Source: Pegea sp. RAD2-039
Lineage: Eukaryota; Chordata; Thaliacea; Salpida; Salpidae
DNA length: 64,000 nucleotides
Assembly: GCA_034620365.1 (NCBI GenBank)
Contig: JAQGEQ010000281.1
Location: forward strand, 580,472-644,471
Direction: 5' to 3'
Of this stretch, positions 48-47,339 are shown piece after piece (within the stretch, counting starts at the first letter, position 1; the number at the start of each line of letters is the position of its first letter). The translations under genes and the position numbers were made by a program. The notes below the pieces were generated by a model. It was not told where the DNA came from, did no database searches, and saw only the letters and a program-made list of their open reading frames with translations.

Positions 48-121
<74 letters not shown>
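48..121 (+). tRNA. tRNA-Asn (anticodon GTT), copy 1
   Basis: A complete cloverleaf can be folded. The acceptor stem GTCTCCG pairs with CGGGGAC (one G-U), followed by discriminator G. The anticodon stem TTCGG/CCGAA encloses loop CTGTTAA with anticodon GTT at 82-84. The T arm has the GGTTCAAGCCC B-box form and there is no intron. The downstream T runs (GTTTTGCTTTTT) suit Pol III termination. The gene marks the left edge of the first array unit and is identical in sequence to three more copies. Confidence 0.97.
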
Positions 122-122
<1 letters not shown>

Positions 123-718
123 ATCGTTTTGCTTTTTATAAAATGAAATTTGTTTATATCGTAACAAATTTTTAAATTAAAAAATTATACTGTTTCAGTG
201 CATTTATAAAAACATTAATTAATAAAAGCTTTAATTAAACTAAAAAATAATAACACAAAATTTTAGAATTTAAATAAAATTTTATAAGACAGTTTTCAAA
301 TACTATGAAAATGTTGTATAAGTTTCGACTAATTTACAAGAAGGCTTGAAATAATTTTGTTTGTATAGAATATTTAATATTTAGATGAAATTAATAGATA
401 ATAAATAAATAATCAAATTGAATTTTAGGTATTTTGGGAATTGCTTTTTTGGTTCCGAATTTTAAAATTTAAATAAATTTCTTAACAGTTTATTACATCA
501 TCGTTTACAATTTAATTAAAAAATTCAACAAAACTCCTCGACTAAGACCCCGCAGCCTTTCTCGCGTTCTTATTGGCAGATATCACCGAATATATCAACG
601 TTTAACTCGTTTCGCAAAGTCGTGAGAACCAAACGTTGTTTTGGCGAAGCAATTTTCAGATCGATTTCTTGTTCCAAGTACCGCTTGTCTTGATCAGTTA
701 ATTGGATTAATTTAACAA
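122..718. other. AT-rich spacer with a short relic of the gene X upstream region
   Basis: No gene is seen. Positions about 294-383 resemble the stretch upstream of gene X (compare 2235-2330). The sequence then jumps to a block that in units 2-4 follows the exon-11 relic (compare 13431 onward). From about 535 the DNA becomes less AT-rich and runs into the minisatellite. Unit 1 therefore keeps an even shorter relic than the other units. Confidence 0.5.
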
Positions 719-1032
719 TCTGATCCTCATCCGATCCTCATCTTCACCTGATCCTCATCTTGATCCTCATCTTCATCTGATCCTCATCTTAATCTGATCT
801 TCATCTGATCTTCATCTTCATCTGATCTTCATCCTCATCTGATCCTCATCTTCAAATCGATCTTCATTTTCACCTGATCCTGATCCTCATCTTCATCTTG
901 ATCCTCATCTTCACTTGATCCTCATCTTCATCTGATCTTCATCTGATCCTCATCTGATCCTCATCTTCATCTGATCTTCATCTGATCTTCATCTGATCTT
1001 CATCTGATCCTCATCTGATCTTCATCTTCTTT
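719..1032. repeat. TGATCCTCATCT minisatellite, unit 1
   Basis: Imperfect tandem array of 6-mers and 12-mers built from TGATC(C/T)TCATCT, about 310 bp, with interspersed CTTCACC variants. It is strongly strand-asymmetric, with pyrimidines on the + strand. The same array sits at the same place in the other units with lengths of about 437, 222 and 685 bp. Confidence 0.95.
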
Positions 1033-2257: not shown

Positions 2258-2398
2258 TTTGTATAAGTTTTGGCTCATTTATAAAAACGTTTAAAATAAT
2301 TTTATTTTTAAAGAATATTTAACTTTATTTAATAAATAAATTTTATCTGTAGTCTTTGAAATTGTTGACTGCAACCAGGTGTAATGATCATATCAATT

Positions 2399-2752: not shown

Positions 2753-5700
2753 ATGGAAATTCAACCAATTAGTATGACTGAAGTAAGTTTATTACTTTTA
2801 TTTTTGAAATATTTATTTACTTCTTTTTTATATTAATAAAGTTATGTTTAGTAATTAAAGTACTTTTTACAATTTTTTAATAAATTAAGATATAAACAAA
2901 TGAAAACAAATAAGTTGATTTTAATTTAAATAAAACAACTAACTATTTAGTTTATTTGTTTGTTATAGTGTGGAGAAAGTATTTCAACCAATAAAAGCTT
3001 GAATAAAAAAGCTCTAACATGGTTCATTTCATTTGATAAACCAAATGAACATCCAAATAACAATAAAATTCATCAAAAGGTTTGCTACTTTGTCTAATTT
3101 CAGTAATTCTTTTATCTTTTAAATATTATAAATTTTGTAAGAATATCTTTTTAACATATTTAGTAATGTAAGTACTTTCACGTAGATTTAAATGTATCTT
3201 TTAATTAAATGTTAATTATCTAGTAAATAACTGCTAAAAAAACTCAAAAAGTTAAATTGTACAATTTACAAAACTAACTTTAATTTAAATAACTTAAATA
3301 AATAAATAACTTTTAAATAAAAATGGTTTTTTTTCGGGATTTTCGATGGCAGAGTTTTTTAGATCTGTTTACATAAGATTTCCGGTAAGAATATTTTTCT
3401 GAAAGCAATTTGGAGAATCTTTAGTTACTAGTAATTATTTGATACTTAGAAAAATTTGTTGATAAAATAAAGTATCACATAAATCATTAAAATATGAAAA
3501 TTTAGAAAATCAAAAGTTAGATATAAAAAGTTAAGTTTTTTTAATTGGTATAATTTTTATAGAACTGAAAATCTTTTATTAAAAACGAATAATTATTAAA
3601 AAATTTTAATAAAATATAAATTTGCTAAAATAAAAATTTTTATTCAGGTTAAATATAGCGACCGAATGTCAAGTAAGTGTTTACCTAACTAATATTATAT
3701 TTTAAGTTTCTAAATTTGTTGAAATTTTGTAAATTTAAATTGTTGTTGTATCTTACTAACTATCATAAAACTCTCTGATAAAAATGATTATAAAAATTAG
3801 TTTCTTGATTTGATATTTAAAACTATTTTCAATTTTAGTTCATTCTATTCAAGTTGAGTTGTTTGAAAATATTCATCTTCAAATGAAACAAAATGATGTT
3901 TTGATGGTGATTAAAAGTTCTTTTTTGATTAAAAGTTCTTTTCTTAAATTCTTTTAATGCTGTTCAAAATGCTTCTGTAGTAATCTAGATAATTTTGTTT
4001 TGTTAAAAGAAATAAAATAATAAAAGCTAATTCTAATAATAAAGGACATAGAATAACTATACACTTTCTGATTAGTGATGAGTAATTTTGATATTTATTG
4101 ATATTCTTTAAAAATACAAATAGTTATTTTTAATATGGTTTTACTATTCTTAGATAAACATAAAACTTTATTAAGCTTTTCACAAACGTTTTATTTAAAG
4201 AAATTCCTTTAGAAAAGTATAACTTTATACTAAGAGATAAATATTAAAATATTTGTGTTTAGACTTTTACTAATTCTATTCAACTATTATTTTACAGAAT
4301 ATTAACATCCAGACAACCTTTACAACTTGCAGTAAGTGTTTTTTTTGTTTCTAGAATAAGTTGTTATTTAATCAAGTCCAGAATCAATTTTATTACAATT
4401 TTGTAATCAATTTTTATAGTTTAACAAGAGATCTTTTTTATTAAAGCTTAAAAGAACTTTTACAAAATAATACTTTAAGATTTGGTTTAACCTAATATCA
4501 CTAACTGATATTTTGTTAATTTTTTCAGTAAATGCAGAACAAATGACATTAGATGATTATATAACATTCAAAGTAAGTTTTGTTGCACTGAAATGAAGTA
4601 CATTTGTTGTAGATCAAAATTATATCTTTAGAAAATAACACAAACACTAAACAAAACGATATTAAAAAGATTAAATGTTTTCATTTACTTAATAATTTTA
4701 TCAAAGTTACTTTTTGATTAAAGTTTTGTCGGTTTTAAATATATGTTTTAACTTACAGTGCAACCAAATGGTTTCTAGAAAACTTTTAAAGAAGCAACAA
4801 AATGTAAGTTTTGCTTCAATTGTAGAAAAGTTTTCTTTTATCTTTCTTATTATTAAGGAATTTTGATTTAGTTTAAAGGCTTTAATTTAACTTTTTTCTA
4901 ACAGCTTTGAAAACGGTAAAAGTAAAAGATATTAATTTTGTTTTAAACTAGTGTGCAGCAGAAACTTAATAAACATAAAATATACAAAAAGATAAAAGTT
5001 TATTCAATTTATAGATATTGAGAACATTAAACGGTTGAATTAATTTTTTCTAGGTTTAATACTTAATATTTGTTAACAGATTGGTGCTAACAGAAATGCT
5101 ATTTTCATGAATAAAAAAACGTTTGAGACGTTGTACTCAAGATTGAATGTAAGCAATGATAATGATTACAAGAAAATTGATGATTTAAATGTAAGTAGTA
5201 ATTTTTATTATACTCTGCAATAACTTTGATTTTTAATTAATGTCTAAGTTGTTAAATCATAAAATAAAATGTTTCTTGAATAAGTTTCAAAACTTTCAGG
5301 AAATAAAAAACGATGAAACGCTTAAAATACGAGAAATAGAAGAAGTTAAAGTCAGATCAATTCTTAAACAAAGGCTTGTTGATGAAGATATTAATGATAA
5401 AACTGTAAGTATCAACTAAGCTTCAGTTTTGATTGTGATTTTTTCCAAAATAAAATTGATTTAATTTATCTGTTCGTAAATTTATTGTTGTTAAATAAAT
5501 TTAATTTATTTGTAATATAAATAGATAATAGCAAAAGAAATGAAACATGTCAAGTTCACTCCAGAAATTAAAAGGAAATATGTAAGTTTCAATTATTTAA
5601 TTATTATTTTGTTTATAATATTTGATTTATTGGCTTTCAGAGATGGAAGAGGTTTAAGAAATGTCTTTTAAACTTTGTCACTTTGAAATGTTTTCGAAGA

Positions 5701-5819
5701 AGTAAGTTGTAAGATTTCTTAGATTTTTATATTTAGTAACTTTTGATATTTTTTCAGAAAAAAGAGGCTATGATTTCGACTTTAGATTTGAAAGTTTAGA
5801 TTATTATTATTTTTTTTGA
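2753..5819 (+). pseudogene. Gene X copy 1 (unrecognised, 13 coding exons; one splice acceptor lost)
   Basis: I do not recognise this family. Coding exons: 2753-2782, 2969-3079, (3337-3384), 3648-3672, 3839-3906, 4298-4331, 4529-4572, 4759-4803, 5080-5190, 5300-5404, 5525-5581, 5641-5701, 5758-5819. They join in frame to a 266-residue product beginning MEIQPISMTE, with no signal peptide or clear membrane segment. A lysine/arginine-rich C-terminal part includes RWKRFKKC and RRKKRGYDFDFRF, ending in Tyr/Phe. Most donors are GTAAG. Before 3337 the acceptor reads TTTCG where copies 2-4 have CAG or an equivalent AG, from loss of one A. That exon is therefore likely skipped (48 nt, in frame) or spliced at a later AG. 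AATAAA at 5848-5853 follows the stop. It could still make a shortened protein, so calling it a pseudogene is provisional. Confidence 0.6.
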
Positions 5820-5879
5820 AACTGTTGTGTTATTTGCGCTAGTATTTAATAAAAATAAAAATCATTACAAGTCTTTTGT

Positions 5880-7345: not shown

Positions 7346-10121
7346 TTAAAATGGGAAATTTACACATATGTCAGGTACACATGGTTGATAGCTGACAACT
7401 ACATGATCAATACATTGATTCGAACTCGCAACTTCTTTCCATTCATTTGTTACTTGATCGTAACATTCGACAATTTGGAAATCACGACCATCTTCGTCTG
7501 GACCATCCTCTAGATCCCCTGTATCAATCAACGAGCTCATCACATTTATGCAAATTATTGTAAACATCGTTAAAATGTTGATTAAAACGTTTTTCATTTC
7601 CAAATATAATAAAAATTTTACCAAAAATATAAATCTTCTTATTAAAGACAACAGCTTTTGGACATGCTCTCGAATAATTCATACTTGCTACGAATTCCCA
7701 ATTATCATTGAGGACATCGTATCTTTCAACAGTCTTTAAATATTCTTCATCATCCCAGCCACCAATGACGTAGATATAGTTGCCAAGCGTGACTAATTCT
7801 GTGATGATTTTAGAATTAGTTATCATCATAAGATCAAAACGTCATCATGACGTCATCAGTCACCTGATCCATATCTAGGTGTCAAAGTTGGTTTTACAGT
7901 GCTCCATTCGTCCTTCTGTGGATCATATTTCTTAAAAAAAGGAACCGAGTCCGTGATATCATTGTTGCCAAAAGCATACAACATGCGGTTGAAGACAGTG
8001 TAATCGTCAACTAAACGACAATCATTTAGTGAAGCTCTTTGCGTCCATTCATCAGTAATGGGATCGTATCTGGAAATAACAAAGTTTTTGGCAAATTAAG
8101 TTTTCGTTGAAAATGCCATTTCATCACTCACTTCATTAATTTGATTTCAACATCAGCTTTAATAATGAGGTACAACTCATTGTCAATAACTTCTACTCTC
8201 TCATATGATAACCTCTCGCCTAAACTTTTGCATTGCTTCCACTCATTTGTGATTGGGTCGTATCTTGAAATTTAATGACGTTATATTTATTTTGTAATGA
8301 TGATCACACCATTTGTTTCATACAAACCTTTCTATGTCACCATTACGGGATAAATTTATTAACACATATATGAAACCGTTAATGACAACAGATTTTGAAT
8401 AGTATAACGCATATGGAAGACACAAGTTTGGAAGCTTAAAGCGAACATCCGTTTCAGACAAACGAAACTCTGCACTTTTCAATACTTTCTCAGTAGAACT
8501 ATCGGGTTCAGTTATGACGTAGATCACCTGTGACGTCATATGTCAGTCGATGAAGTGAAAAGTATTTAATTAAATAATCTTACCTGCGGAATATCAAGTT
8601 GTCTTGGCTTACTTTCAATTGTGATGTAAGCTTTGAGATCTTCAAGCACCTTGCTGAGATGTTCATAACAAGTATTTCTAATTACATCACAATTTTCCAA
8701 TTGCATAGAAATGAACCTTGGTTTTATCAAATGACAACGTACCTAGAGAAATCACAATTTTATACTCATAAGTCTACAACTTTATAATTTTTAGATACTT
8801 ACTTTTTTAATTAATTCTTTTAAGCAGTTTTGTCTTGAAGTTAAATCATATTTGATCCACTCTAGAAGAGCATTGAATACTTGGGATTCACAAACCACAT
8901 GAAGCTCATTTTGAGTAATTACTTTAGAAATTACAGAGTCTGGTTGTAATTTGAATTTTTGAGTTTTTGAAATCTGGTGAATATCATTTGGTTAATCAAA
9001 AACTCGTCCTTATTAAATATAAAAAAACAAGATCAATAGAAATAACCAAATAAAAAATATTTCATAAATATTTAAGCTTGATGAAGTAGAGAAAATCTTT
9101 CTACATGAAAAGCTTTAGCCAGGAAAATAACAATTCTTCATTTTTTTACTTTTAGAAAGTTTTTTCCAATAATTTTTTCAAATTTAGTTGAAAGCTCCAT
9201 ATATCCAAAATACTCAACAAACATTGCAAATTCGAAGCAGTTGTAAATGTCTATTTGACTTTCCAAAAAGCTGTAATTGATAAAGTATAGTTACAAAACT
9301 ATTAAAAGAAACTGATTTATAAAACTATCTTACTTGCTACATAACTTCTCTAGACCATTTATTTGAAACATGGAATCTGCAATCATGAGTCTCACAATAT
9401 TTTCTTCATTGATTTGTATTTCTTTTGTGTGCAAATAATCAAAAAGAACAGAAAATACATTTGGGTCTACGTCATTTATGGTAACTTCATCAGAATGTGC
9501 TTCTGTGAATCCACCTTAATAAATTCAAATAGTTTTTGTGATGATACATTTAGTTATTTTGTAACTGAAGTTGAATCTTGAATCTAACTCACCACGAAAC
9601 ATAGCTTCAAAATAAGGTGAAGCAGCAGCTAAAACTCCTTTGTTACATTTGAAAGTTCGTTCAAAGCCATTCAATTTCACTTTGATTAAAACATCACAAA
9701 CCGGCGAATTTTCAAAAGAGTCATTTAGATTAAAGTGGCAACGATTATCCACTTCCTTAAGTTCATTTCTAAATGAATAACTAAAAACACAACCCCTTAA
9801 TAAGTTGTTAGATCGATACGTAAATGAAATAAGAAAATTAAAATTCCTTTTATTAATTGAGTAATACTGAAATCACTCTAAGCCAGATAAAAAAACATAA
9901 TAAAATCAAGTTAAAGCTGATAAGATTTAAGTTATTAATATCTTTCTAGATTCAACATAAATGATTTTTCTATCTGCTTTTATTTTAAATAAAAAGTGAA
10001 TATAATTTTATTTATTTAGAAAACAATGTTTAGTAAAGACACAAAATTCTATTAACCTGATATTATCTCTAGGTGGCACATCTGAATCTGAAACAACTTT
10101 ACTCTTTGATCTTTCTGCCAT
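7346..10121 (-). CDS. BTB-BACK-Kelch protein, array copy 1
   Basis: Eleven coding exons on the minus strand: 10121-10057, 9768-9593, 9514-9334, 9270-9150, 8973-8803, 8742-8584, 8527-8328, 8263-8132, 8069-7864, 7798-7622, 7518-7346. They join in frame to 586 codons plus stop, the usual KLHL length. The BTB domain (about residues 45-140) shows CDVLIKVKLNG, VLAAASPYFEAMFRGGF and NVFSVLFDYLHT. BACK (about 145-290) shows VVCESQVFNALLEWIKYD. The C-terminal half is a Kelch propeller with VIGGWDDEE and repeated RYDP..NEW strands. Such proteins usually act as CUL3 substrate adaptors; the substrate is unknown. The start is the only ATG upstream of the BTB, in MAERSKSK. An AATAAA overlaps the stop on the minus strand. 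Tail-to-tail with gene X. Confidence 0.9.
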
Positions 10122-11930: not shown

Positions 11931-12266
11931 ATATCTTCGTTATATATATCTTCTTTCAACAAATAGACTAACTAAAGAGGGATTCTTGTGTTGACAGCAA
12001 CAAGTAGAAGCTTTTTATCTGGAAACAACCTACCAGCGCTACTCTAAGTAGTCAACTAGTTTTTAAATATGCTTATTAAAGAGAAGCTTCTATTCAAGAA
12101 CCACGTGACTTGGTGTACCTTAACACAGAAGTCGATCTCTTGTCTCATATTTCGATGTAAAAGATTAAAATTAAAACTTTACTTTAAGATAAAAAGTTTG
12201 TGTCAATCCAAATTTTGTCATTAAAATTTCTAAAAAAATTGTTTAACAATTTTAAGCTGCTTTCAT

Positions 12267-12340
<74 letters not shown>
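12267..12340 (+). tRNA. tRNA-Asn (anticodon GTT), copy 2
   Basis: Identical over 74 nt to the copy at 48, with the same 3' flank CGAATCGTTTTGCTTTTT. It marks the unit 1/unit 2 junction. The preceding 25 bp (TTTTAAGCTGCTTTCAT) are shared with copies 3 and 4. Confidence 0.97.
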
Positions 12341-13770: not shown

Positions 13771-14207
13771 TGATCCTCATCCTCATCTTCACCTGATCTT
13801 TATCTTCATCTGATCCTCATCTTCATCTTCACCTGATCATTATCTTTATCTGATCTTCATCTTCATCTGATCCTCATCTTCACTTGATCCTCATCTTCAC
13901 CTAATTTTCATCTTCATCTGATCCTCATCTTCATCTGATCCTCATCTTCACCTTATCCTGATCTTCATCTTCATCTTGATCCTCATCTTCACTTGATCCT
14001 CATCTGACCTAATCCTCATCTTCCTCTGATCCTTTTCTTTACCTGATCTTCATCTTCACCTGATCCTCATCTTCATCTGATCCTTGTCTTTATCTGATCC
14101 TCATCTTCATCTCATCCTTACTTGATCTTCATCTGATCCTCTTCTGATCCTCATCTGATCCTCATCTGATCTTCATCTGATCTTCATCTGATCTTCATCT
14201 GATCCTG
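13771..14207. repeat. TGATCCTCATCT minisatellite, unit 2
   Basis: About 437 bp of the same imperfect array as at 719. It joins directly to the regulatory block with no unit-1-type insert. Confidence 0.95.
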
Positions 14208-14211
14208 AAGC

Positions 14212-14645
14212 GCACGAAGGTGGTGTACGCCGGATTCGACGCAAAAGCGCCGCAAAGCGTGCTTCGCGCTCAAGCCAAATATGGAACTAAAAGTACAAAT
14301 GGCAAACTCACTAAAGGTTGGTGATGAAGTCACATCGCCGTTACGTCACTCAAGCTTCGAATCGAAACAGCTCATCAGATGACGTCATCGTTTTTTACGT
14401 CAGCAGCGGCGCGAATGAAAGCGGAATCGACGCGAATTCGAATGAATGTTCCGGTTGGCCGCATCGTGGATTCCGATGTTGATTCGAGACGCGCGAACTC
14501 CAACATAAAGAAACATAAGCGACATCTCGTGGTTGGTTGTCATAGCAACCGACAATTCTTCTTCTGCAGCTCAATTTGCTCCTTTGATGCGTAAGACTCT
14601 GAAACCGATGGGTCAACTTCGAAACTGATGACGTCACTGACGCGA
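14212..14645 (+). promoter_or_regulatory. CArG/CRE/X-box-like block, unit 2
   Basis: CCAAATATGG at 14275-14284; CRE TGACGTCA at 14380-14387 and 14629-14636; X-box-like GTTGTCATAGCAAC at 14536-14549. The first CRE is mutated to TGAAGTCA (about 14324), the only unit in which it is broken. Confidence 0.6.
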
Positions 14646-15157
14646 TTTTGTGACTCTCTCTTTTTCCATTTTTCTCTTTTTAAATTAAATGATTAAATTA
14701 AATTTTAATTAAAAAGTTTTTTGTTTTAAATTTTTGTAATTAGTTTAATTTACACAAGTTTGTAAAAAAAAATTCATTTTAGCAAAATTTCAGTTTATCT
14801 AAAAAAAGTGAATTCTAATTATCTGAAAAATTATCTTTAAATTAAACAAGGTTCTGGGACTCGTACCAGGGACCAATGTACTAAGAGACCCTATTTCTTA
14901 ACTACTGAGATAGCTGGACTTGTAATATATTCGAATATTTGCACAATTTTAGAATCATAAATTATTGTTATTAAAACGTTTAAAACCAAAATTTCATAAT
15001 AAATATTTGTGAATTAGATTTACAATTGCTTAAAACTCAGTTTAGTAAAAGTAATTTTACAAGAATAACACAAAACAATAAAAGTTTTGAATTAATTTGA
15101 ATAAGAATTATGAAAGTAAGGAATTAATTAAGTTTATTTATTTTTATTTATTTCAAT

Positions 15158-18900: not shown

Positions 18901-19100
18901 ATTTGATTTATTGACTTTCAGAGATGGAAGAGGTTTAAGAAATGTCTTTTAAACTTTGTCACTTTGAAATGTTTTCAAAGAAGTAAGTTGAAAGATTTCT
19001 TAGATTTTTATATTTAGTAACTTTTGATATTTTTTCAGAAAAAAGAGGTTATGATTTCGACTTTAGATTTGAAAGTTTAGATTATTATTATTATTTTTGA
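15930..19100 (+). CDS. Gene X copy 2 (unrecognised 266-residue protein)
   Basis: Coding exons: 15930-15959, 16234-16344, 16603-16650, 16913-16937, 17104-17171, 17581-17614, 17814-17857, 18041-18085, 18366-18476, 18585-18689, 18806-18862, 18922-18982, 19039-19100. All junctions are GT-AG and phases match, giving an uninterrupted 266-codon frame. The family is not recognised. Visible features are two Cys-containing short exons (FTTC, CNQM), a charged lysine/glutamate-rich segment in exon 11 (EIEEVKIRSILKQ), a basic segment RWKRFKKC and a Tyr-rich end. No signal peptide or transmembrane helix. An untranslated exon ending at 15530 probably precedes it. AATAAA at 19129-19134. Confidence 0.8.

Positions 19101-25985: not shown

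Positions 25986-26059
<74 letters not shown>
25986..26059 (+). tRNA. tRNA-Asn (anticodon GTT), copy 3
   Basis: Identical over 74 nt to copies 1, 2 and 4, at the unit 2/unit 3 junction. Confidence 0.97.
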
Positions 26060-27476: not shown

Positions 27477-27698
27477 TGATCCTCATCCTCATCTTTATCT
27501 TCACCTGATCTTTATCTTTATCTGATCTTCATCTTCTTCTGATCCTTTTCTTTACCTGATCTTCATCTTCACCTGATCCTCATCTTCATCTGATCCTTGT
27601 CTTTATCTGATCCTCATCTTCATCTCATCTTTACTTGATCTTCATCTGATCCTCTTCTGATCCTCATCTGATCCTCATCTGATCTTCATCTGATCCTG
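27477..27698. repeat. TGATCCTCATCT minisatellite, unit 3
   Basis: Shortest array, about 222 bp. Confidence 0.95.
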
Positions 27699-27702
27699 AA
27701 GC

Positions 27703-28135
27703 GCACGAAGGTGGTGTACGCCGGATTCGACGCAAAAGCGCCGCAAAGCGTGCTTCGCGCTCAAGCCAAATATGGAACTAAAAGTACAAATGGCAAACTC
27801 ACTAAAGGTTGGTGATGACGTCACATCGTCGTTACGTCACTCAAGCTTCGAATCGAAACAGCTCATCAGATGACGTCATCGTTGTTTACGTCAGCAGCGG
27901 CGCGAATGAAAGCGGAATCGACGCGAATTCGAATGAATGTTCCGGTTGGCCGCATCGTGGATTCCGATGTTGATTCGAGACGCGCGAACTCCAACATAAA
28001 GAAACATAAGCGACATCTCGTGGTTGGTTGTCATAGCAACCGACAATTCTTCTTCTGCAGCTCAATTTGCTCCTTTGATGCGTAAGACTCTGAAATCGAT
28101 GGGTCAACTTCGAAACTGATGACGTCACTGACGCG
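27703..28135 (+). promoter_or_regulatory. CArG/CRE/X-box-like block, unit 3
   Basis: CCAAATATGG at 27766-27775; CRE TGACGTCA at 27816-27823, 27871-27878 and 28120-28127; GTTGTCATAGCAAC at 28027-28040. All sites are intact. Confidence 0.6.
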
Positions 28136-28659
28136 ATTTTGCGCCTCTCTCTTTTTCCATTTTTCTCTTTTTAAATTTAATGATTAAATTAAATTTTAAT
28201 TAAAAAGTTTTTTGTTTTAAATCTTTGTAATTAGCTAAATTTACACAAGTTTGTAAAAAAAAAAACATTTCAGCAAAATTTCAGTTTATCGAAAAAAAGT
28301 GAATTCTAATTTTCTGAAAAATTATCTTTAAATTAAACAAGGTTCTGGGACTCGTACCAGGGACAAATGTATTAAGAGTCCCTATTTCTTAACTACTGAG
28401 ATAGCTGGACTTGTAATATATTCAAATATTTGCACAATTCTAGAATCATAAATTATTGTTATTAAAACGTTTAAAACCAATATTTCATAATAAATATATG
28501 TGAATTAGATTTACAATTGCTTAAAACTTAGTTTAGTAAAAGTAGTTTTACAAGAATAACACAAAACAATAAAAGTTTTGAATTAATTTTAATAAGAATT
28601 ATGAAAGTAAGGAGTTAATTAAGTTTATTTATTTTTATTTATTTTTATTTATTTCAATA

Positions 28660-29419: not shown

Positions 29420-32400
29420 ATGGAAATTCAACCAATTAGTATGACTGAAGTAAGTTTATTACTTTTATTTTTGAACTATTTTTGTACAACTTTTTAATAA
29501 TTTAAAATGAAAACAAACAAGTTCATTTTAATGTAAACAAAACAACTAACTATTTAGTTTATTTATTTGTTATAGTGTGGAGAAACTATTTCAACCAAAA
29601 AAAGCTTGAATAAAAAAGCTCTAACATGGTTCATTTCATTTGATAAACCAAATGAACATCCAAATAACAATAAAATTCATCAAAAGGTTTGCTACTTAGT
29701 CTAATTTCAGTAATTCTTTTTTCTTTTAAATATTATAAATTTTGTAAGAATATCTTTTTAACATATTTAGTATTGTAAAAACTTTCACACAATTATAAAT
29801 GTATCTTTTAATTAAATGTTAATTATCTAGTAAATAACTGCTAAAAAAACTCAAAAAGTTAAATTGTACAATTCACAAAACTAACACTAAATTTTTTAAC
29901 TTAAATAAATAAATAACTTTTAAATAAAAATGATTTTTTATTCAGAGTTTTTCAAGGGCCGAGTTTTTTAGATCTGTCTACATAAGATTTCCGGTAAGAA
30001 TAATTTTCTGAAAACAATTTTGAGAATCTTTAGTTACTAGTAATTATTTGATACTCCGAAAAATTTGTTGATAAAATAAAGTATCACATAAATCATTAAA
30101 ATATGAAAATTTAGAAAATCAAAAGTTAGATATAAAAAGTTAAGTTTTTTTAATTGGTATGATTTTTATAGAACTGAAAATCTTTTATCAAAAACGAATA
30201 ATTATTTAAAAAATTAATTAAATATAAATTTGATAACTAAAAATTTTTCTTTAGGTTAAATATGGCGACCAAATGTCAAGTAAGTGTTTACCTAACTATT
30301 ATTATATTTTAAGTTTCTAATTATAACTATTATTCTAAATTTGTAGAAATTTAGTAAATTTAAAGTGTTGTTGTATCTTACTTACTATAATAAAACTCTT
30401 TGATAAAAATGATTGTAAAAATTAGTTTCTTAATTTGATAATTAAAACTATTTTCAATTTTAGTTCATTCTATTCAAGTTGAGTTGTTTGAAAATATTCA
30501 TCTTCAAATGAAACAAACTGATGTTTTGATGGTGATTAAAAGTTCTTTTTTGATTAAAAGTTCTTTTCTTAAATTCTTTTAATGCTGTTCAAAATGCTTC
30601 TGTAGTAATCTAGATAATTTTGTTTTGTTAAAAGAAATAAAATAATAAAAGGTAATTCTAATAATAAAGGACATAGAATAACTATACACTTTCTGATTAG
30701 TGATGATTAATTTTGATATTTATTGATATTCTTTAAAAATACAAATAGTTATTTTTAATATGGTTTTACTATTCTTAGATAAACATAAAACTTTATTAAG
30801 CTTTTCACAAACGTTTTATTTAAAGAAATTCCTTTAGAAAAGTATAACTTTATACTAAGAGATAAATATTAAAATATTTGTGTTTAGACTTTTACTAATT
30901 CTATTCAAAAATTATTTTACAGAATATTAACATCCAGACAACCTTTACAACTTGCAGTAAGTGTTTTTTTTTGTTTCTAGAATAAGTTGTTATTTAATCA
31001 AGTCCAGAATAAATTTATTACAATTTTGTAATCAATTTTTATAGTTTAACAAGAGATCTTTTTTATTAAAGTTTAAAAGAACTTGTACAAAATAATACTT
31101 TAAGGTTTGGTTTAACTTAACATCACTAACTGATATTTTGTTAATTTTTTCAGTAAATGCAGAACAAATGACATTAGATGATTATATAACATTCAAAGTA
31201 AGTTTTGTTGCACTGATATAAAGTACATTTGTTGTAGATCAAAATTATATCTTTAGAAAATACAAATACTAAACAAAACGATATTAAAAAGATTCAATGT
31301 TTTTATTTACCTAATAATTTTATCAAAGTTAATTTTTGATAAAAGTTTTGTCGGTTTTAAATATATGTTTTAACTTACAGTGCAATCAAATGGTTTCTAC
31401 AAAACTTTTAAACAAGCAACAAAATGTAAGTTTTGCTTCAATTGCAGAAAAGTTTTCTTTTATCTTTCTTATTATTAAGAAATTTTGATTTAGTCTAAAA
31501 GTTTTAATTTAACATTTTTCTAACAGCTTTGAAAACGGTAAAAGTAAAAGATATTAATTTTGTTTTAGACTAGTGTACAGCAGAAACTTAAACAAAAAAT
31601 ATACAAAAAGATAAAAGTTTATTCAATTTTGAGATATTGAAAACACTAAATGGTTAAATTAATCTTTTCTAAGTTTAATACTTAATATTTGTTAACAGGT
31701 TGTTGCTAACAGAAGTGCTATTTTCATGAATAAAAAAACGTTTGAGACCTTGTACTCAACATTGAATGTAAGCAACGATAAAGATTATAAGAAAATTGAT
31801 GATTTGAATGTAAGTAGTAATTTGTTATTATACTTTGCAATAACTTTGATTTTTAATTAATGTCTAAGTTGTTAAATCATAAAACAAAATATTTCTTGAA
31901 TAAGTTTCAAAACTTCAGGAAATAAAAAACGATGAAACGCTTAAAATACGAGAAATAGAAGAAGTTAAAATCAAATCAACTCTTAAACAAAGACTTGTTG
32001 ATGAAGATAATAATGATAAAACTGTAAGTATCAACTAAACTTTAGTTTTCATTGTTAATGGTTTTAAACTTGTTTCTTATATTGATATATTTGTAAACTA
32101 ATTTTCTTAACTAAATGATTATTTACAATATAAACAGATAACAGCAAAAGAAATGAAACATGTCAAGTTCACTGCAGAAATTAAAAGGAAATATGTAAGT
32201 TTCAATTATTTAATTATTATTTTGTTTATAATATTTGATTTATTGGCTTTCAGAGATGGAAGAGGCTCAAGAAATGTCTTTTAAACTTTGTCACTTTGAA
32301 ATGTCTTCAAAGAAGTAAGTTGAAAGATTTCTTAGATTTTTATATTTAGTAACTTTTGATATTTTTTCAGAAAAAAGAGGCTATGATTTCGACTTTAGAT

Positions 32401-32432
32401 TTGAAAGTTTAGATTATTATTATTATTTTTGA
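29420..32432 (+). CDS. Gene X copy 3 (unrecognised 266-residue protein)
   Basis: Coding exons: 29420-29449, 29576-29686, 29946-29993, 30255-30279, 30464-30531, 30923-30956, 31154-31197, 31381-31425, 31699-31809, 31919-32023, 32138-32194, 32254-32314, 32371-32432. All junctions are GT-AG and the frame is open. It is the most diverged copy in protein sequence: CGETISTKK, FSRAEFF where the others have FSMAEFF, VSTKLLNKQ where they have VSRKLLKKQ, and ANRSAIF. The first intron is shortened (126 bp against 186 in copy 1 and 274 in copy 2). Whether the amino-acid changes are neutral or adaptive cannot be judged here. Confidence 0.8.
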
Positions 32433-34293: not shown

Positions 34294-37066
34294 TTAAAAT
34301 GGGAAATTTACACATATGTCAGGTACACATGGTTGATAGCTGACAACTACATGATCAATACAATGATTCGAACTCGCAACTTCTTTCCATTCATTTGTTA
34401 CTTGATCGTAACATTCGACAATTTGGAAATCACGACCATCTTCGTCTGGACCATCCTCTAGATCCCCTGTATCAATCAACGAGCTCATCACATTTATGCA
34501 AATTATTGTAAACATCGTAACAATGTTGATTAAAACGTTTTTCAATTCCAAACATAAGAAAAGTTTTACCAAAAACATAAATCTTCTTATTAAAGACAAC
34601 AGGTTTTGGACATGCTCTCGAATAATTCATACTTGCTACGAATTCCCAATTATCATTGAGGACATCGTATCTTTCAACAGTCTTTAAATATTCTTCATCA
34701 TCCCAGCCACCAATGACGTAGATATAGTTGCCAAGCGTGACTAAATCTGTGACGATTATAGAATTTGTTATCATCATAAGATCAAAACGTCATCATGATG
34801 CCATCAGTCACCTGATCCATATCTAGGTGTCAGAGTTGGTTTTACAGTGCTCCATTCGTCCTTCTGTGGATCATATTTCTTAAAAAAAGGAACTGAGTCC
34901 GTGACATCATTGTTACCAAAAACATACAACATCCGGTTGAAGACAGTACAATCGTCAACGTAACCACAGTCAATTAATGAAGCTCTTTGCGTCCATTCAT
35001 CAATAATGGGATCGTATCTGGAAATAACATAGTTTTTGGCAAATGAAGTTTTCGTTGAAAATGCCATTTCATCACTCACTTCATTAAATCGATTTCTTCA
35101 CCAGGTATAATGATGTACAACTCATTGTCAATAACTTCTACTCTCTCACCTCCTAAATTCTCGCCTAAACTTTTGCACTTCTTCCACTCATTTGTAATTG
35201 GGTCGTATCTTGAAAATTAATGACGTTATATTTAGTTTGTAATGATGATCACACCATTTGTTTCATACAAACCTTTCCATATCACCATTACCGGATAAAT
35301 TTATTAACACATAAATGAAACCGTTAATGACAGCAGATTTTGAAAAATCCAACGAATTTGGAAGACACAAGTTGGGAAGTTTAAAGCGAACATCCGTTTC
35401 AGACAAACGAAACTCTGCACTTTTCAATACTTTCTCAGTAGAACTATCGGGTTCAGTTATGATGTAGATCACCTGTGACGTCATATGTCAGTCATTGAAG
35501 TGAAAAGTATTTAATTAAATAATCTTACCTGCGGAATATCAAGTTGTCTTGGCTTACTTTCAATTGTGATGTAAGCTTTGAGATCTTCAAGCACCTTGCT
35601 GAGATGTTCATAACAAGTATTTCTAATTACATCACAATTTTCCAATTGCATAGAAATGAACCTTGGTTTTATCAAATGACAACGTACCTAGAGAAATCAC
35701 AAATTTATACTCATAAGTCTACAACTTTATAGTTTCTAGATACTTACTTTTTTAATTAATTCTTTTAAGCAGTTTTGTCTTGAAGTTAAATCATATTTGA
35801 TCCACTCTAGAAGAGCATTGAATACTTGGGATTCACAAACCACATGAAGCTCATTTTGAGTAATTACTTTAGAAATTACAGAGTCTGGTTGTAATTTGAA
35901 TTTTTGAGTTTTTGAAATCTGGTGAATATCATTTGGTTAATCAAAAACTTGTCCTTATTAAATATAAAAAAACAAGATCAATAGAAATAACCAAATAAAA
36001 AATATTTCATAAATATTTAAGCTTGATGAAGTCGAGAAAATCTTTCTACATGAAAAGCTTTAGCCAGGAAAATAACAATTCTTCATTTTTTTACTTTTAG
36101 AAAGTTTTTTCCAATAAATTTTTCAAATTTAGTTGAAAGCTCCATATATCCAAAATACTCAACAAACATTGCAAATTCGAAGCAGTTGTAAATGTCTATT
36201 TGACTTTCCAAAAAGCTGTAATTGATAAAGTATAGTTACAAAACTATTAAAAGAAACTGATTTATAAAACTATCTTACTTGCTACATAACTTCTCTAGAC
36301 CATTTATTTGAAACATGGAATCTGCAATCATGAGTCTCACAATATTTTCTTCATTGATTTGTATTTCTTTTGTGTGCAAATAATCAAAAAGAACAGAAAA
36401 TACATTTGGGTCTACGTCATTTATGGTAACTTCATCAGAATGTGCTTCTGTGAATCCACCTTAATAAATTCAAATAGTTTTTGTGATGATACATTTAGTT
36501 ATTTTGTAACTGAAGTTGAATCTTGAATCTAACTCACCACGAAACATAGCTTCAAAATAAGGTGAAGCAGCAGCTAAAACTCCTTTGTTACATTTGAAAG
36601 TTCGTTCAAAGCCATTCAATTTCACTTTGATTAAAACATCACAAACCGGCGAATTTTCAAAAGAGTCATTTAGATTAAAGTGGCAACGATTATCCACTTC
36701 CATAAGTTCATTTCTAAATGAATAACTAAAAACACAACCCCTTAATAAGTTGTTAGATCGATACGTAAATGAAATAAGAAAATTAACATTCCTTTTATTA
36801 ATTGAGTAATACTGAAATCACTCTAAGCCAGATAAAAAATCATAATAAAATCAAGTTAAAGCTGATAAGATTTAAGTTATTAATATCTTTCTAGATTCAA
36901 CATAAATGACTTTTGTATCTGCTTTTATATTAATTAAAAAGTGAATATAATTAAATTTATTTAGAAAACAATGTTAAGTAAATACACAAAATTCTATTAA
37001 CCTGATATCATCTCTAGGTGGCACATTTGAATCAGAAACAACTTTAATCTTTGATCTTTCTGCCAT
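34294..37066 (-). CDS. BTB-BACK-Kelch protein, array copy 3
   Basis: Exons on the minus strand: 37066-37002, 36713-36538, 36459-36279, 36215-36095, 35918-35748, 35687-35529, 35472-35273, 35208-35080, 35017-34812, 34746-34570, 34466-34294. The frame is open throughout, 585 codons plus stop. Domain order as in copy 1. Exon 8 is 129 bases, 3 shorter than copy 1 and 9 shorter than copy 2, ending IPGEEIDLMK. The BTB half is almost the same as copy 1, while the Kelch half is closer to copy 2. That mosaic suggests gene conversion or unequal exchange between units. Confidence 0.9.
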
Positions 37067-37708
37067 TTGGATCCAATTAAAGATTTCAGAAAAAAAAATA
37101 TATAGGAAGTATATGTATACGTATATATATACTGTTGATGAAACTGCTAAGGATAATATCTAGTATATCTCATAAAACAAATGTAGAATTTTATATAAAA
37201 ATAATCAAAGAATTTACTATGTATAGAATTACAATTATAAAAAACAAAAATTCTAGAAACTTTACAACTATGAACATAAATTAAATAAATGTAATTCATT
37301 CTAGAAAACCAGTTCTTTGGTTGATGTAGCTAAAATTAATCAAAATGTATAATATAACAAATACTAAAATAAATCTAATATCAATAGAATATCCTCAAAA
37401 GTTAATAGATAAGTATTAAAGCATTATTTAATAACTGAAAAATGTTGATATTTTAAAGATTAAATATAAATACAAAAATTTAAATGTAAAAAATTATTCA
37501 ACAAATCAACAATTGTTTGACTTTACTTGGTGTGAGTCGCCAGCTTGTTTATATAATGTTTATGGAAAAGCAATATAAAAAGTTAGCTTAATGTGAGATC
37601 TCAAATACCTCTCAAAAGAACCCAATAAATAAAAACACATTTGCCCATATATTTAAAGAATTTATAGTATTTGAAAAACCTCCTATACAAATAAACTAAG
37701 ATAGACCC

Positions 37709-38720
37709 TTCCATTAAATCTCTGTACAAAGATCTTTGTATAGTTTACAAGAAATCTATTTCTAATTTCTATTTAGGAAGAGAAAGTGCAGTCTTATCTT
37801 CACCTTGCAAGAAAACGTTTTTTGGTTTCATAAGTCACAAACTTAAGGCGAGATCTCAGTTACCTCCCTTACTTGATAACAGCGACCAGCTTGTGATGGT
37901 ACAAGAAAATAAAGCTGAGTTGCTAAACAATCAATTTAATGGCGTTTTTACAACCGATGATGGTAATACTCATTCTCTTTCCTACTCCGACATTCTTACA
38001 AATATCTCCGAGATGTTAGATCTTGACATAACGGTCAATTTGGTATTTAAGGCTATTTTTTGATTAAAATGATCAGTTTCCAACACCCCAGATCAGATCC
38101 CAGCTTTATTTTTAAGAAAAACTACTTCCTTTTTATTACTACCTTTATCGCTTTTCTTTAACATGACTTTGTGGCGAGGTAGACTTCCACAAATTTGGTA
38201 GAAAGTTATTACTGTTTTATTACTCCAACTCATAAGTATGGTCCCAGAAACACCACACTTAACTACAAACCAGTTTCGCTGACTTCAGTTATTTGCAGAA
38301 CTCAAGAGCATATCATTCACAATCATATGACCAGTCATTTGATGGAGAACCATCTAATATCTGATGTCCAACATGGCTTTGTGAAGTGGAGATCTTCCAT
38401 GACTCAACATCTCATTTTTCTTAATGAGCTTACAGCCCATAATGAAATTAAGACTCCCTGTGACATCATATACCTCGATTTTGCTAAAGCGTTTGATTAT
38501 GTCCCACACACTAAGCTCGTTACTGTATTGAAAAACTTAAAAATCAACATCTTTATCTTACAGTGGTTGGAAAATTACCTTTCAGGTAGAACCCAACAAA
38601 CTCGTGTATAAAAAGATCTGTATCTACTTTTAAACAAATCACTAGTGGTGTTCCTCAGAGTTCTGTTCTGGGTCCCCTTATCTTTTTTCATTTTCATTGG
38701 AGAACTCATCAGAAGACTAG
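37709..38720 (+). mobile_element. Decayed LINE fragment, unit 3
   Basis: Best preserved frame of the three: 38195-38611 is open for 138 codons from the NYKPVSLTSVICRT block through YLDFAKAFDYVPHTKL to LSGRTQQTRV. A stop follows, and the motif-B segment is in another frame. No endonuclease or YxDD part is present. Confidence 0.85.
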
Positions 38721-39067
38721 TATCTCAACGAATATCTTCGTTATATATATCTTCTTTCAACAAATAGACTAACTAAAGAGGGATTCTTGTGTTGACAGCA
38801 ACAAGTAGAAGCTTTTTATCTGGAAACAACCTACCAGCGCTACTCTAAGTAGTCAACTAGTTTTTAAATATGCTCATTAAAGAGAAGCTTCTATTCAAGA
38901 ACCACGTGACTTGGTGTACCTTAACACAGAAGTCGATCTCTTGTCTCATATTTCGATTAAAAAGATTAAAATTAAAACTTTACTTTAAGATAAAAAGTTT
39001 GTGTCAATCCAAATTTTGTCATTAAAATTTCTAAAAAAATTTTTTAACAATTTTAAGCTGCTTTCAT

Positions 39068-39141
<74 letters not shown>
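39068..39141 (+). tRNA. tRNA-Asn (anticodon GTT), copy 4
   Basis: Identical over 74 nt to the other three copies, at the unit 3/unit 4 junction. Confidence 0.97.
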
Positions 39142-41253: not shown

Positions 41254-41257
41254 GAAG

Positions 41258-41690
41258 CGCACGAAGGTGGTGTACGCCGGATTCGACGCAAAAGCGCCGC
41301 AAAGCGTGCTACGCGCTCAAGCCAAATATGGAACTAAAAGTACAAATGGTAAACTCACTAAAGGTTGGTGATGACGTCACATCGTCGTTACGTCACTCAA
41401 GCTTCGAATCGAAACAGCTCATCAGATGACGTCATCGTTGTTTACGTCAGCAGCGGCGCGAATGAAAGCGGAATCGACGCGAATTCGAATGAATGTTCCG
41501 GTTGGCCGCATCGTGGCTTCCGATGTTGATTCGAGACGCGCGAACTCCAACAAAAAGAAACATAAGCGACATCTCGTGGTTGGTTGTCATAGCAACCGAC
41601 AATTCTTCTTCTGCAGCTCAATTTGCTCCTTTGATGCGTAAGACTCTGAAATCGATGGGTCAACTTCGAAAATAATGACGTCACTGACGC
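41258..41690 (+). promoter_or_regulatory. CArG/CRE/X-box-like block, unit 4
   Basis: CCAAATATGG at 41322-41331; CRE TGACGTCA at 41372-41379, 41427-41434 and 41676-41683; GTTGTCATAGCAAC at 41583-41596. All sites are intact. Confidence 0.6.
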
Positions 41691-42117
41691 GATTTTGCGC
41701 CTTTCTCTTTTTCCATTTTTCTCTTTTTAAATTAAATGATTAAATTAAATTTTAATTAAAAAGTTTTTTGTTTTAAATTTTTGTAATTAGCTAAATTTAC
41801 ACAAGTTTGTAAAAAAAAAAATATTTTAGCAAAATTTCAGTTTATCGAAAAAAAGTGAATTCTAATTTTCTGAAAAATCGTCCTTAAATTAAACAAGGTT
41901 CTGGGACTCGTACCAGGGACCAATGTATTAAGAGTCCCTACTTCAAAACCAATATTTCATAATAAATATTTGTGAATTAGATCAACAAATACTTAAAACT
42001 TAGTTTAGTAAAAGTAGTTTTACAAGAATAACACAAAACAATAAAAGTTTTGAATTAATTTGAATAAGAATTATGAAAGTAAGGAGTTAATTAAGTTTAT
42101 TTATTTTTATTTATTTC

Positions 42118-42891: not shown

Positions 42892-45800
42892 ATGGAAATT
42901 CAACCAATTAGTATGACTGAAGTCAGTTTATTATTTTTATTCTTGGACTATTTATTTACTTCTTTTTTATATTAATAAAGTTATGTTTAGTAATTAAAGT
43001 ATTTTTTACAATTTTTTAATAATTTAAAATGAAAACAAACAAGTTAATTTTAATGTAAACAAAACAACTAACTATTTAGTTTATTTATTTGTTATAGTGT
43101 GGAGAAACTATTTTAACTAATAAAAGCTTGAATAAAAAAGCTCTAACATGGTTCATTTCATTTGATAAACCAAATGAACATCCAAATAACAATAAAATTC
43201 ATCAAAAGGTTTGCTACTTAGTCTAATTTAAGTAATTATTTTATCTTTTGAATATTGTAATTTTTGTAAGAATATCTTTTTAACATATTTAGTATTGTAA
43301 AAACTTTCACATAATTATAAATTTGCTGTTTAACTAAATGTTAATTATAAATGTATCTATTAAATAATTAAATCATCTAGTAATTAACTGCTAAAAAAAC
43401 TCAAAAAGTTAAATTGTACAATTTACAAAACTAACTTTAATTTAAATAACTTTTAAATAAAAATGGTTTTTTTTTCAGGGTTTTTCAATGGCCGAGTTTT
43501 TTAGATCTGTTTACATAAGATTTCCGGTAAGAATAATTTTTTGAAAACAATTTTGAGAATATTTAGTTATTAATAATCATTAGATACTCAGAAAAATTTT
43601 TTGATAAAATAAAGTATCACATAAATCATTAGAAAATGAAAATTTAGAAAATCAAAAGTTAGATATAAAAAGTTAAGTTTTTCTAAATGGTATAAATTTT
43701 ATAGAACTGAAAATCTTTTATCAAAAACGAATAATTATTAAAAAATTTCAATAAAATATAAATTTGCTAAAATAAAAATTTTTCTTTAGGTTAAATATAG
43801 CGACCGAATGTCAAGTAAGTGTTTATCTAACTAATATTCTATTTTAAGTTTCTAAATTTGTAGAAATTTTGTAAATTTAAATTGTTGTTGTATCTTACTA
43901 ACTATCATAAAACTATCTGACAAAAATGATTATAAAAATTAGTTTCTTGATTTGATATTTAAAACTATTTTCAATTTTAGTTCATTCTATTCAAGTTGAG
44001 TTGTTTGAAAATATTCATCTTCAAATGAAACAAAATGATGTTTTGATGGTGATTAAAAGTTCTTTTTGATTAAAAGTTCTTTTCTTAAATTCTTTTAATG
44101 CTGTTCAAAAGCTTCTGTAGTAATCTAGATAATTTTGTTTTGTTAAAAGAAATAAAATAATAGAAGCTAATTCTAATAATAAAGGACATAGAATAACTAT
44201 ACACTTTCTGATTAGTGATGATTAATTTTGATATTTATTGATATTCTTTAAAAATACAAATAGTTATTTTTAATATGGTTTTACTATTCTTAGATAAACA
44301 TAAAATTTTATTAAGCTTTTCACAAACGTTTTATTTAAAGAAACTCCTTTAGAAAAGTATAACTTTATACTAAGAGATAAATATTAAAATATTTGTGTTT
44401 AGACTTTTACTAATTCTATTCAACAATTATTTTACAGAATATTAACATCCAGACAACCTTTACAACTTGCAGTAAGTGTTTTTTTTGTTTCTAGAATAAG
44501 TTGTTATTTAATCAAGTCCAGAATCAATTTTATTACAATTTTGTAATCAATTTTTATAGTTTAACAAGAGATCTTTTTTATTAAAGTTTAAAAGAACTTG
44601 TACAAAATAATACTTTAAGATTTGGTTTAACTTAACATCACTAACTGATATTTTGTTAATTTTTTTAGTAAATGCAGAACAAATGACATTAGATGATTAT
44701 ATAACATTCAAAGTAAGTTTTGTTGCGCTGAAATGTAGTACATTTGTTGTAGATCAAAATTATATCTTTAGAAAATACAAATACTAAACAAAACGATATT
44801 AAAAAGATTCAATGTTTTTATTTACCTAATAATTTTATCTAAGTTACTTTTTGATAAAAGTTTTGTCGGTTTTAAATATATGTTTTAACTTACAGTGCAA
44901 TCAAATGGTTTCTAGAAAACTTTTAAAGAAGCAACAAAATGTAAGTTTTGCTTCAATTGCAGAAAAGTTTTCTTTTATCTTTCTTATTATTAAGGAATTT
45001 TGATTTAGTTTAAAAGTTTTAATTTAACTTTTTTCTAACAGCTTTGAAAACGGTAAAAGTAAAAGATATTAATTTTGTTTTAAACTAGTGTGCAGCATAA
45101 ACTTAAACAGAAACTTAAAAATATACAAAAAGATAAAAGTTTATTCAATTTTGAGATATTGAATATTAAAATCATTAAACGGTTAAATTAATCTTTTCTA
45201 AGTTTAATACTTATTATTTGTTAACAGGTTGTTGCTAACAGAAATGCTATTTTCATGAATAAAAAAACGTTTGAGACGTTGTACTCAAGATTGAATGTAA
45301 GCAATGATGAAGATTATAAGAAAATTGATGATTTAAATGTAAGTAGTAATTTTTATTATACTCTGCAATAATTTTGATTCTTAAATCTTATCCAAGTTGT
45401 TAAAAATAAGACAAAATGTTTATTGAATAAGTTTCAAAACTTTCAGGAAATAAAAAACGATGAAACGCTTAAAATACGAGAAATAGAAGAAGTTAAAATC
45501 AAATCAATCCTTAAACAAAGACTTGTTGATGAAGATATTAATGATAAAACTGTAAGTATCAACTAAACTTCAGTTTTGATTGTTATTACAATAACAATAA
45601 TAATATTGTTATTCAAATAAAATTGTTTTAATTTATATATTTGTAAAACAATTGTTTTTAATTAAATGTTTATTTTAAATATAAACAGATAATAGCAAAA
45701 GAAATGAAACATGTCAAGTTCACTCCAGAAATTAAAAGGAAATATGTAAGTTTCAATTATTTAATTATTATTTGTTTATAATATTTGATTTATTGGCTTT

Positions 45801-45985
45801 CAGAGATGGAAGAGGTTTAAGAAATGTCTTTTAAACTTTGTCACTTTGAAATGTTTTCGAAGAAGTAAGTTGAAAGATTTCTTAGATTTTTATATTTAGT
45901 AACTTTTGATATTTTTTCAGAAAAAAGAGGCTATGATTTCGACTTTAGATTTGAAAGTTTAGATTATTATTATTATTATTATTGA
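42892..45985 (+). CDS. Gene X copy 4 (unrecognised 267-residue protein)
   Basis: Coding exons: 42892-42921, 43098-43208, 43479-43526, 43790-43814, 43981-44048, 44438-44471, 44669-44712, 44896-44940, 45228-45338, 45447-45551, 45689-45745, 45804-45864, 45921-45985. The frame is open throughout. The first donor is GTCAGT where the other copies have GTAAGT, still a GT donor. The acceptor at 43477-43478 is intact, unlike copy 1. The C-terminal run is six tyrosines because the TTA/TAT repeat at the stop has expanded. No Kelch gene follows, since the unit ends about 70 bases downstream. Confidence 0.8.
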
Positions 45986-46052
45986 AACTGTTGTGTTATT
46001 GGCGCTAGTATTTAATAAAAATAAAAATCATTACAAGTCTTTTGTGATCTTT

Positions 46053-47339
46053 TACTTTTTTTAAAGTTTTTCTTTTGAAAATATTATTATTTTTAATTAT
46101 TTTAATAATTATCTTTGAGAAGACACGTCTTTAACATTTTATGTCCTTTAGAGTTTAATTTTCTAAATATTTCTAAACATTTAAATGTTAATAACAATTT
46201 TAACCATAATATTACTTTATATTATATTTTATATCTAGATTGTATAGAATTTATTCTATTCTCTATTATATAGAGAATGTGAACACGGTTATATTTATTA
46301 TATAATCTACTTTTATATTATATCCTAATCTATTCAAAGTTTTCAATTTTCGATTTTAGTTATTGTACTTCTATTATAATAAATTCTAATGTATTGTTTT
46401 TATACCAGTTTCAAATTAAGTTTAAATCACTTTTCGGTTTTTAACCTTTTTTATAAATATTCAATTTCTTAATTAAATCATTTTTTTTCATGGGTCTGTA
46501 TATCAGCTACTATTATTTGATTTTGTAGCCAGTTTTTAAAAGTTGCTTTTAGACCTTTTTTTTGTACCGATAATCTGATTTACTTAATTATCTAATTATT
46601 TGTTAAAAAATTTTATTTTTACATTTATGCTGTTATACCTAAACTGAAAGTCAAATTTTGTTTAGAGGTTCGATTTAAGATTTATTTCTACTTTTATGTT
46701 TCTGTTGTTTCTTCACTTAAAAAATTCAAATAATTTTTCTACAAAACAATTCTAATAAACAAAACAATTATTTATCATTGAAATATCTAGAATCTTCCAT
46801 AAGAAAGTTGACAATATTTCGAAAATTTTAGCTTTTTGGCGTTTAGTTTTCAGAAATTTTAGTCTTATACCTTAAATAAAAAAAATCAATATTTTTATAC
46901 TTCCATAAACACTTAAATCAAAAAATAATCTTAGTTCTTCAGATAAGCTTTTGAAAGAGTTGTAATATAAGATAATAATAATAATATAATCGATGGAACT
47001 AACTTTATTATTTATTCTGAAGATCCTGAATTATAAACTGATATTTAAAGTTAAAAAATAATGATATTTGCTTGAAAACAAACTTGCTGCAACTAATCTG
47101 TAATTGTAGGTTGAGTTTTATAGATTAATATAGATTATAAATCAAGTGTTTGTTACAACTGAGTAAAAATGAAAATTAATTTAAAATGGAATTTGTTGTA
47201 AATATTTCTAAAAAATATTTCTTATTTTTATTTTTAAAGTACTAAAATTATACTATTAAATTAAAAGGATTAAATTTTACTATTTTGATATTTGGTATTT
47301 ACTAATTTTGATTTATTTTTAAAATGCTAAAATTAAAGC
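46053..47339. other. Right flank of the array, no gene seen
   Basis: Similarity to the 3' flank of gene X (compare 5880) stops at about 46053 after GTCTTTTGTGATCTTTTA. The DNA beyond is unique and very AT-rich. I find no ORF, RNA gene or repeat here. Confidence 0.5.

Follow-up and report, generated by a model that had tools for sequence, protein, structure and literature searches.

The window analysed here is a stretch of 64,000 nucleotides of Pegea sp. RAD2-039 (assembly GCA_034620365.1). It forms the final 64 kb of contig JAQGEQ010000281.1 (C50), which ends at 644,471. From position 48 to about 46054, the window consists of head-to-tail units that carry two unrelated protein genes. One is a gene with 12 exons, here called gene X. 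The other encodes a BTB-BACK-Kelch protein. The pattern of change between the copies shows that selection keeps both genes open, and the Kelch copies are likely to change more on their predicted substrate-binding face.

The units are about seven head-to-tail copies of one chromosome stretch in an AT-rich eukaryote. In a self-comparison they are mostly 90-98% identical over kilobases, and lower in the satellite stretches. At such length and identity, a chance origin of the similarity is no issue. We also read 80 kb upstream of the window. The array starts about 39.6 kb upstream and covers approximately 540,908 to 626,525 of C50. It contains seven copies of gene X (A to G, of which D to G fall inside the window), six Kelch genes, and seven tRNA-Asn genes. 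The order is tRNA, X, Kelch, and a piece of a long interspersed nuclear element (LINE), six times over, and then tRNA and X. Gene X copy G is the last element, and the array stops at about 46054. Measured from anchor to anchor, the full units in the window have 13,042, 13,491 and 13,556 bases. Units B to F, the five complete ones, range from 13,042 to 14,113. In the whole genome searched (105.7 Mb, 387 contigs), gene X is also present on contigs C198, C182, C220, and C221, and in a degenerate state on C195. No match to COX1 turned up in the assembly.

The first-pass annotation had described a tandem amplicon. The self-comparison, the shared order of elements and the kilobase-long identity bear this out. 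Its spacings between the start codons of gene X (13177, 13490 and 13472 bp) are exact, with ATGs at 2753, 15930, 29420, and 42892. The count of three complete units and a truncated one is right for the window, and not as the total of the array, with seven gene X copies on C50. Likewise, the unit does contain gene X, Kelch, tRNA, and a regulatory block, as described. This content was incomplete, since a LINE reverse-transcriptase piece and a satellite are also in the units. The elements in the window are listed below.

48..121, plus strand, tRNA-Asn (GTT) of unit D (ARAGORN; Rfam RF00005, 67.7 bits)
718..1029, plus strand, ATCTTCATCTG / 17-bp satellite stretch of unit D (Tandem Repeats Finder, TRF), with many matches across the genome
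1165..1640, plus strand, GC-rich block of unit D ahead of gene X, containing three TGACGTCA sites
2753..5819, plus strand, gene X copy D, 12 exons, 250 residues (exon model and family scan)
7346..10121, minus strand, BTB-BACK-Kelch gene copy D, 11 exons, 586 residues
10893..11807, plus strand, broken LINE-type reverse transcriptase fragment of unit D (RVT_1, E 1.7e-12, for 11439-11807 only; no family match over the cut-off at 10893-11156)
about 12266..12340, plus strand, tRNA-Asn (GTT) of unit E (ARAGORN and Rfam)
13768-14206, 27479-27695 and 40566-41253, further stretches of the ATCTTCATCTG / 17-bp satellite (TRF)
14207..14679, plus strand, GC-rich TGACGTCA block of unit E, two exact sites
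15930..19100, plus strand, gene X copy E
21003..23871, minus strand, BTB-BACK-Kelch gene copy E
24646..25592, plus strand, LINE reverse transcriptase fragment of unit E, with open reading frames (ORFs) resembling those of unit D
about 25985..26059, plus strand, tRNA-Asn (GTT) of unit F (ARAGORN and Rfam)
27698..28170, plus strand, GC-rich TGACGTCA block of unit F
29420..32432, plus strand, gene X copy F
34294..37066, minus strand, BTB-BACK-Kelch gene copy F
37695..38608, plus strand, LINE reverse transcriptase fragment of unit F, with ORFs resembling those of unit D
about 39067..39141, plus strand, tRNA-Asn (GTT) of unit G (ARAGORN and Rfam)
41254..41726, plus strand, GC-rich TGACGTCA block of unit G
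42892..45985, plus strand, gene X copy G

The 12 exons of gene X copy D are bordered by GT and AG. We compared 13 near full-length copies. Seven are A to G of C50, C198 and C182 contribute two apiece, and C220 and C221 have a single one each. Twelve of them are open with matching exon lengths, and the last exon of copy G is three bases longer. Insertions and deletions (indels) were counted in 11 copies against copy D. There is one in 8283 aligned exon sites versus 231 in 23,532 intron sites, about 80 times denser in introns; these events are partly shared by descent, so they are not independent, and a Poisson figure gives no valid probability. The sole exon indel was scored as frame-breaking in this count, and a separate reading finds all those copies in frame. 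Substitutions reach 0.039 per exon site versus 0.083 per intron site. The ratio of non-synonymous to synonymous differences (pN/pS) is 0.40 (bootstrap 0.25-0.67, 12 copies).

Against Pfam, gene X gives nothing over the cut-offs, and the weak matches are DUF3496 (E 0.019) and TRAPPC13_M (E 0.082). Among solved chains, the best match has E 0.15 with the single sequence and E 0.37 with a profile of 10 copies. Judged by its sequence, gene X is an intron-rich orphan family with no relative found beyond this genome. We also scanned viral contigs for relatives. None of the 55 pattern-matching stretches encodes one, and a viral origin is not indicated by the contigs covered. Remains of gene X occur as an inverted piece at C50:538,995-539,986 and as two degenerate copies on C195. 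Finally, a stray exon 9, together with its donor site, is seen at 12604-12735, 26323-26454, and 39402-39536, in the interval from the tRNA to the gene X that follows. It is likewise present in two units upstream of the window.

The Kelch protein was identified with copy D; the other eight copies align along the same length. Pfam finds BTB at 36-146 (E 2.6e-26), BACK at 152-251 (E 5.4e-20), and Kelch_1 (E 2.3e-29), all over the cut-offs. Kelch_1 passes its cut-off individually in three stretches. The best solved match is KEAP1, with E 2.4e-77 over residues 37-578. One protein therefore carries an N-terminal BTB domain followed by BACK and the Kelch repeats, the same domain order as in KEAP1 and the KLHL adaptors of CUL3. 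These domains show that the predicted product belongs to the Kelch family. The phi-X-E motif of the BTB domain, which we take to be the CUL3 contact, is F-T-E or F-K-E in all nine copies. The product is most likely a CUL3 ubiquitin-ligase adaptor.

The nine Kelch copies compared are six from C50 and three from C198; the Kelch genes of C182 are known from search matches. All nine are open, and the last bases of copy A lie beyond the range examined. Relative to copy D, length changes occur only in exon 8. They measure 3 to 27 bases and are always multiples of three. The pN/pS of the whole gene is 0.66 (0.47-0.94). The first-pass annotation had held that both amplified genes are maintained. The open frames, the exon-intron contrast in indels, and the pN/pS values of both genes agree with this. 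The dN/dS between copies (the same ratio, for substitutions), which it had proposed as a check, is 0.385 for gene X; for Kelch the value obtained is the pN/pS.

Similarity between the units is a mosaic. In a purely descriptive comparison along the unit, the closest pair among the five full units B to F shifts from C-F to B-C, B-D, E-F, C-F, B-D, and D-F. More precisely, the closest pair is C-F at 1.8-3.6 kb, B-C at 3.6-5.4, E-F at 6.0-7.2, C-F at 7.2-7.8, B-D at 7.8-9.0, and D-F at 9.0-9.6. Near the tRNA (about 11.4-14 kb), the most divergent pairs differ by 15-50%, because insertions or replacements set the units apart there. The silent difference in BACK is low (0.015), which fits a recently homogenised stretch. 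The array thus combines head-to-tail units of shared order with mosaic similarity. This mosaic is the trace expected of exchange and conversion between tandem copies.

The Kelch copies do not vary evenly over the propeller. In the predicted substrate-face loops, 32 of 85 residues are variable versus 19 of 164 in the remaining propeller (P 2.5e-6), with loop borders drawn by hand after the variable sites had been seen. The pN/pS of the loops is 1.04 (0.60-2.01) versus 0.34 for the remaining propeller. An alternative test took 22 residues of KEAP1 that contact Nrf2, of which 18 could be placed in the alignment. Apart from six, these are residues that we take to be contact sites. The six are named in the available passages of PMC4668279. 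At the exact contact places, 6 of 18 residues are variable versus 38 of 221 elsewhere (P 0.09). Within one residue, the numbers are 12 of 44 versus 32 of 195 (P 0.075), and within two residues 21 of 68 versus 23 of 171 (P 0.002). The KEAP1 test, though weaker, is more trustworthy than the hand-drawn loops. A bias of change toward the substrate face is therefore likely.

The octamer TGACGTCA occurs 15 times in the window versus 0.41 expected, and always inside the array. On C50:500,001-644,471, all 26 sites lie within the array. The GC-rich block carries three of them at near-fixed spacing (two in unit E). It has a GC content of 0.43-0.50 and 96-98% identity among units B to F. The genome holds nine matches to it (six on C50, for copies B to G, two on C198, and one on C182), and all precede a gene X copy. 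The co-amplified regulatory-looking block of the first-pass annotation is therefore real. The genome search gave no match to the block at copy A, at gene X on C220 and C221, at the broken copy of C182, or at the copies of C195. The remaining TGACGTCA sites on C50 and C198 are mostly in Kelch introns. Further ones are found on C198 (three, at 29.2-29.4 kb) and on C195 (three). We take the octamer to be a CREB/ATF site, and CREB/ATF factors would bind it. The block, 1.1-1.6 kb ahead of gene X, is probably the promoter or enhancer of this gene in the arrayed copies.

Two further observations concern these sites. The splice acceptor of Kelch exon 7 (ATATGACGTCACAGG) shares bases with one TGACGTCA, at 8531-8538 in copy D. 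All nine Kelch copies have this overlap, and so does a distant paralogue located on C116. A third gene made of the ORFs 1286-1552 and 1356-1640 in the block was dropped, as they overlap each other on opposite strands. The first of them, the block ORF that was scanned, gave just Ctf8 with E 0.064, under the cut-off.

The tRNA-Asn gene has 31 identical copies in the genome and 41 within two mismatches, seven of them in the C50 array. So, its identity between units needs no special cause. Every one of the six contigs with gene X carries at least one copy, which fits a single ancestral duplicated block. The tRNA looks like a passenger, because it is identical at 31 genomic places. Elsewhere, contig C208 (27171-83077) carries thirteen tRNA-Asn genes with 0-2 mismatches.

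BTB-BACK-Kelch genes are numerous outside the array. There are at least 151 BACK matches (150 of 399 candidates scored) and at least 350 exon matches to the first 402 Kelch residues (103 of 1181 candidates scored), counts that may include alleles. Clusters lie at C116:263605-467063, at C97:111035-253158, on C14, and on C81. On C116 and C97 the genes are mostly 7-10 kb apart on one strand. The array Kelch is set apart from the named KLHL adaptors as one of these BACK matches, and its orthology to any of them is not established.

Taken together, we consider the following explanation fairly probable. A segment of about 13 kb would have been duplicated in tandem; besides the two unrelated protein genes, it held a tRNA gene, a control block upstream, and remnants of repeats. 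The array would then have grown and been partially homogenised by unequal crossing-over and gene conversion. Selection keeps both protein genes open, as the pattern of change shows. The Kelch gene is a local offshoot of the BTB-BACK-Kelch family expanded throughout the genome, and its copies are likely to diverge on the face predicted to bind substrates. Different copies of this putative ligase adaptor may catch different targets. Gene X would be kept for a reason of its own, most likely dosage or diversification. The tRNA and the LINE pieces would be passengers.

Several results weigh against this explanation. Copy A of gene X has isoleucine in place of the start methionine and lacks the TGACGTCA block. 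Copy B has no AG ahead of exon 8 in the alignment, and one copy on C182 is broken from about exon 7 onward. Turnover is therefore going on. Gene X is open on C220 and C221 too, although the search gave no block there, and maintenance thus does not require it. By themselves, BTB with a pN/pS of 0.50 (0.20-1.54) and BACK with 1.28 (0.48-7.02) show no constraint. Regarding the substrate face, the hand-drawn loop borders and the two weaker contact checks, at the exact places and within one residue, also count against it. The loop ratio may reflect relaxed constraint and is no proof of positive selection.

The first-pass annotation had proposed that gene X and Kelch form a functional module. In its strong form, gene X would be a substrate or an obligate cofactor of the adjacent Kelch protein, hence their joint amplification. 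All six Kelch copies on C50 adjoin a gene X, and both genes are open in nearly all copies. However, the two genes do not always occur together. In the array, Kelch sits 1.5 kb downstream of gene X, whereas at 18,001-31,000 of C220 gene X has no Kelch neighbour. On C198, two neighbouring Kelch genes have no gene X in between. Contig C182 has gene X at 62-64 and 101-104 kb, and the matches to Kelch at 72, 82, and 94 kb fall in the interval. In 10 kb of C116, one Kelch gene and the start of another come with no match to gene X and no tRNA. In addition, tRNA-Asn is present on all six contigs that bear gene X, so that the link of gene X to the tRNA is no looser than its link to Kelch. Neither Pfam nor the solved chains give gene X a relative that marks it as a substrate. 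We thus regard such a partnership as very unlikely, and the module proposal is not sustained, given that each gene occurs without the other and the Kelch family is genome-wide. The two are co-amplified because both sit in one duplicated segment.

Neutral amplification, by unequal exchange alone with copies that have merely not decayed so far, would account for the amplified LINE piece, satellite, and tRNA, and for the decay of some gene X copies. It does not account for intron indels about 80 times denser than exon indels, nor for the low pN/pS of gene X, and conversion by itself would not spare exons. We judge it quite unlikely. A reading of the adaptor array as a defence-type system is unlikely too. 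The large Kelch family in clusters, the change concentrated in the predicted substrate-face loops, and the TGACGTCA sites, which suggest inducible control of gene X, speak for it, and a precedent is given in the available part of PMC4334554. Nevertheless, pN/pS is nowhere confidently above 1, and nothing ties gene X to defence. The chance is small that this is a stress-inducible, TGACGTCA-driven locus where a lineage-specific protein X and diversifying Kelch adaptors cooperate, for instance in a defence repertoire, and where array length varies between haplotypes. Finally, an assembly artefact is extremely improbable. Uncollapsed haplotypes may be present, as C220 and C221 are 95.5% alike over 4958 aligned columns. 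However, units on the same contig differ in most stretches and are mutually mosaic, and their differences avoid exons, which copying errors would not do.

Other repeats and genes were seen in the window. Each unit carries two copies of a repeat of about 390 bp (6159-6548, 12843-13224, and the homologous positions). Part of this repeat resembles DNA beside the lectin genes downstream, by ORF translations. These are a tandem duplication of a C-type lectin domain at the end of the contig (58277-64000), with a Pfam match at 60021-60845 and a similar piece at 62847-63485; the aligned pieces are 95.6 and 97.8% identical. Between the array and the lectins, on the minus strand at 54212-57742, lie pieces of a sodium:neurotransmitter symporter (SLC6) gene, of which the scan covered 54212-54595.

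The array is a well-preserved case of a known type of gene-family expansion, here a tandem segmental array that forms part of an expansion of Kelch adaptors. The available passages of PMC1257465 and PMC4334554 describe expansions of ubiquitin-ligase adaptors with a variable recognition part (nematode MATH-BTB and F-box, vertebrate BTB-BACK-Kelch). As far as these passages go, the array is like them in its multiplied substrate adaptors with a variable recognition part. It differs in that this part is a Kelch propeller and that the unit adds an unrelated gene. Positive selection in the binding part is not shown by the pN/pS of the loops. Kelch is named among lineage-specific expansions, with a suggested role in host defence, in the available passages of PMC3846280, which describe no array of this structure. 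In Brachionus asplanchnoidis, copy-number-variable satellite regions include large tandem DNA with duplicated genes (PMC8447722, in part). As described there, they are mainly satellites of 143 and 154 bp with few genes, whereas the present array has a 13-kb unit with two constrained genes. No such array appears in titles or abstract openings of the literature searched, a search made without the species name that carries little weight.

The array also brings to light gene X, an orphan family of 12-exon genes that selection maintains. Kelch adaptors, rather than F-box or MATH-BTB, appear to be multiplied in this genome, by counts that cover Kelch and BACK only. With seven gene X and six Kelch copies on one contig and more elsewhere, the copy series lets coding constraint, loop divergence, and homogenisation be separated.

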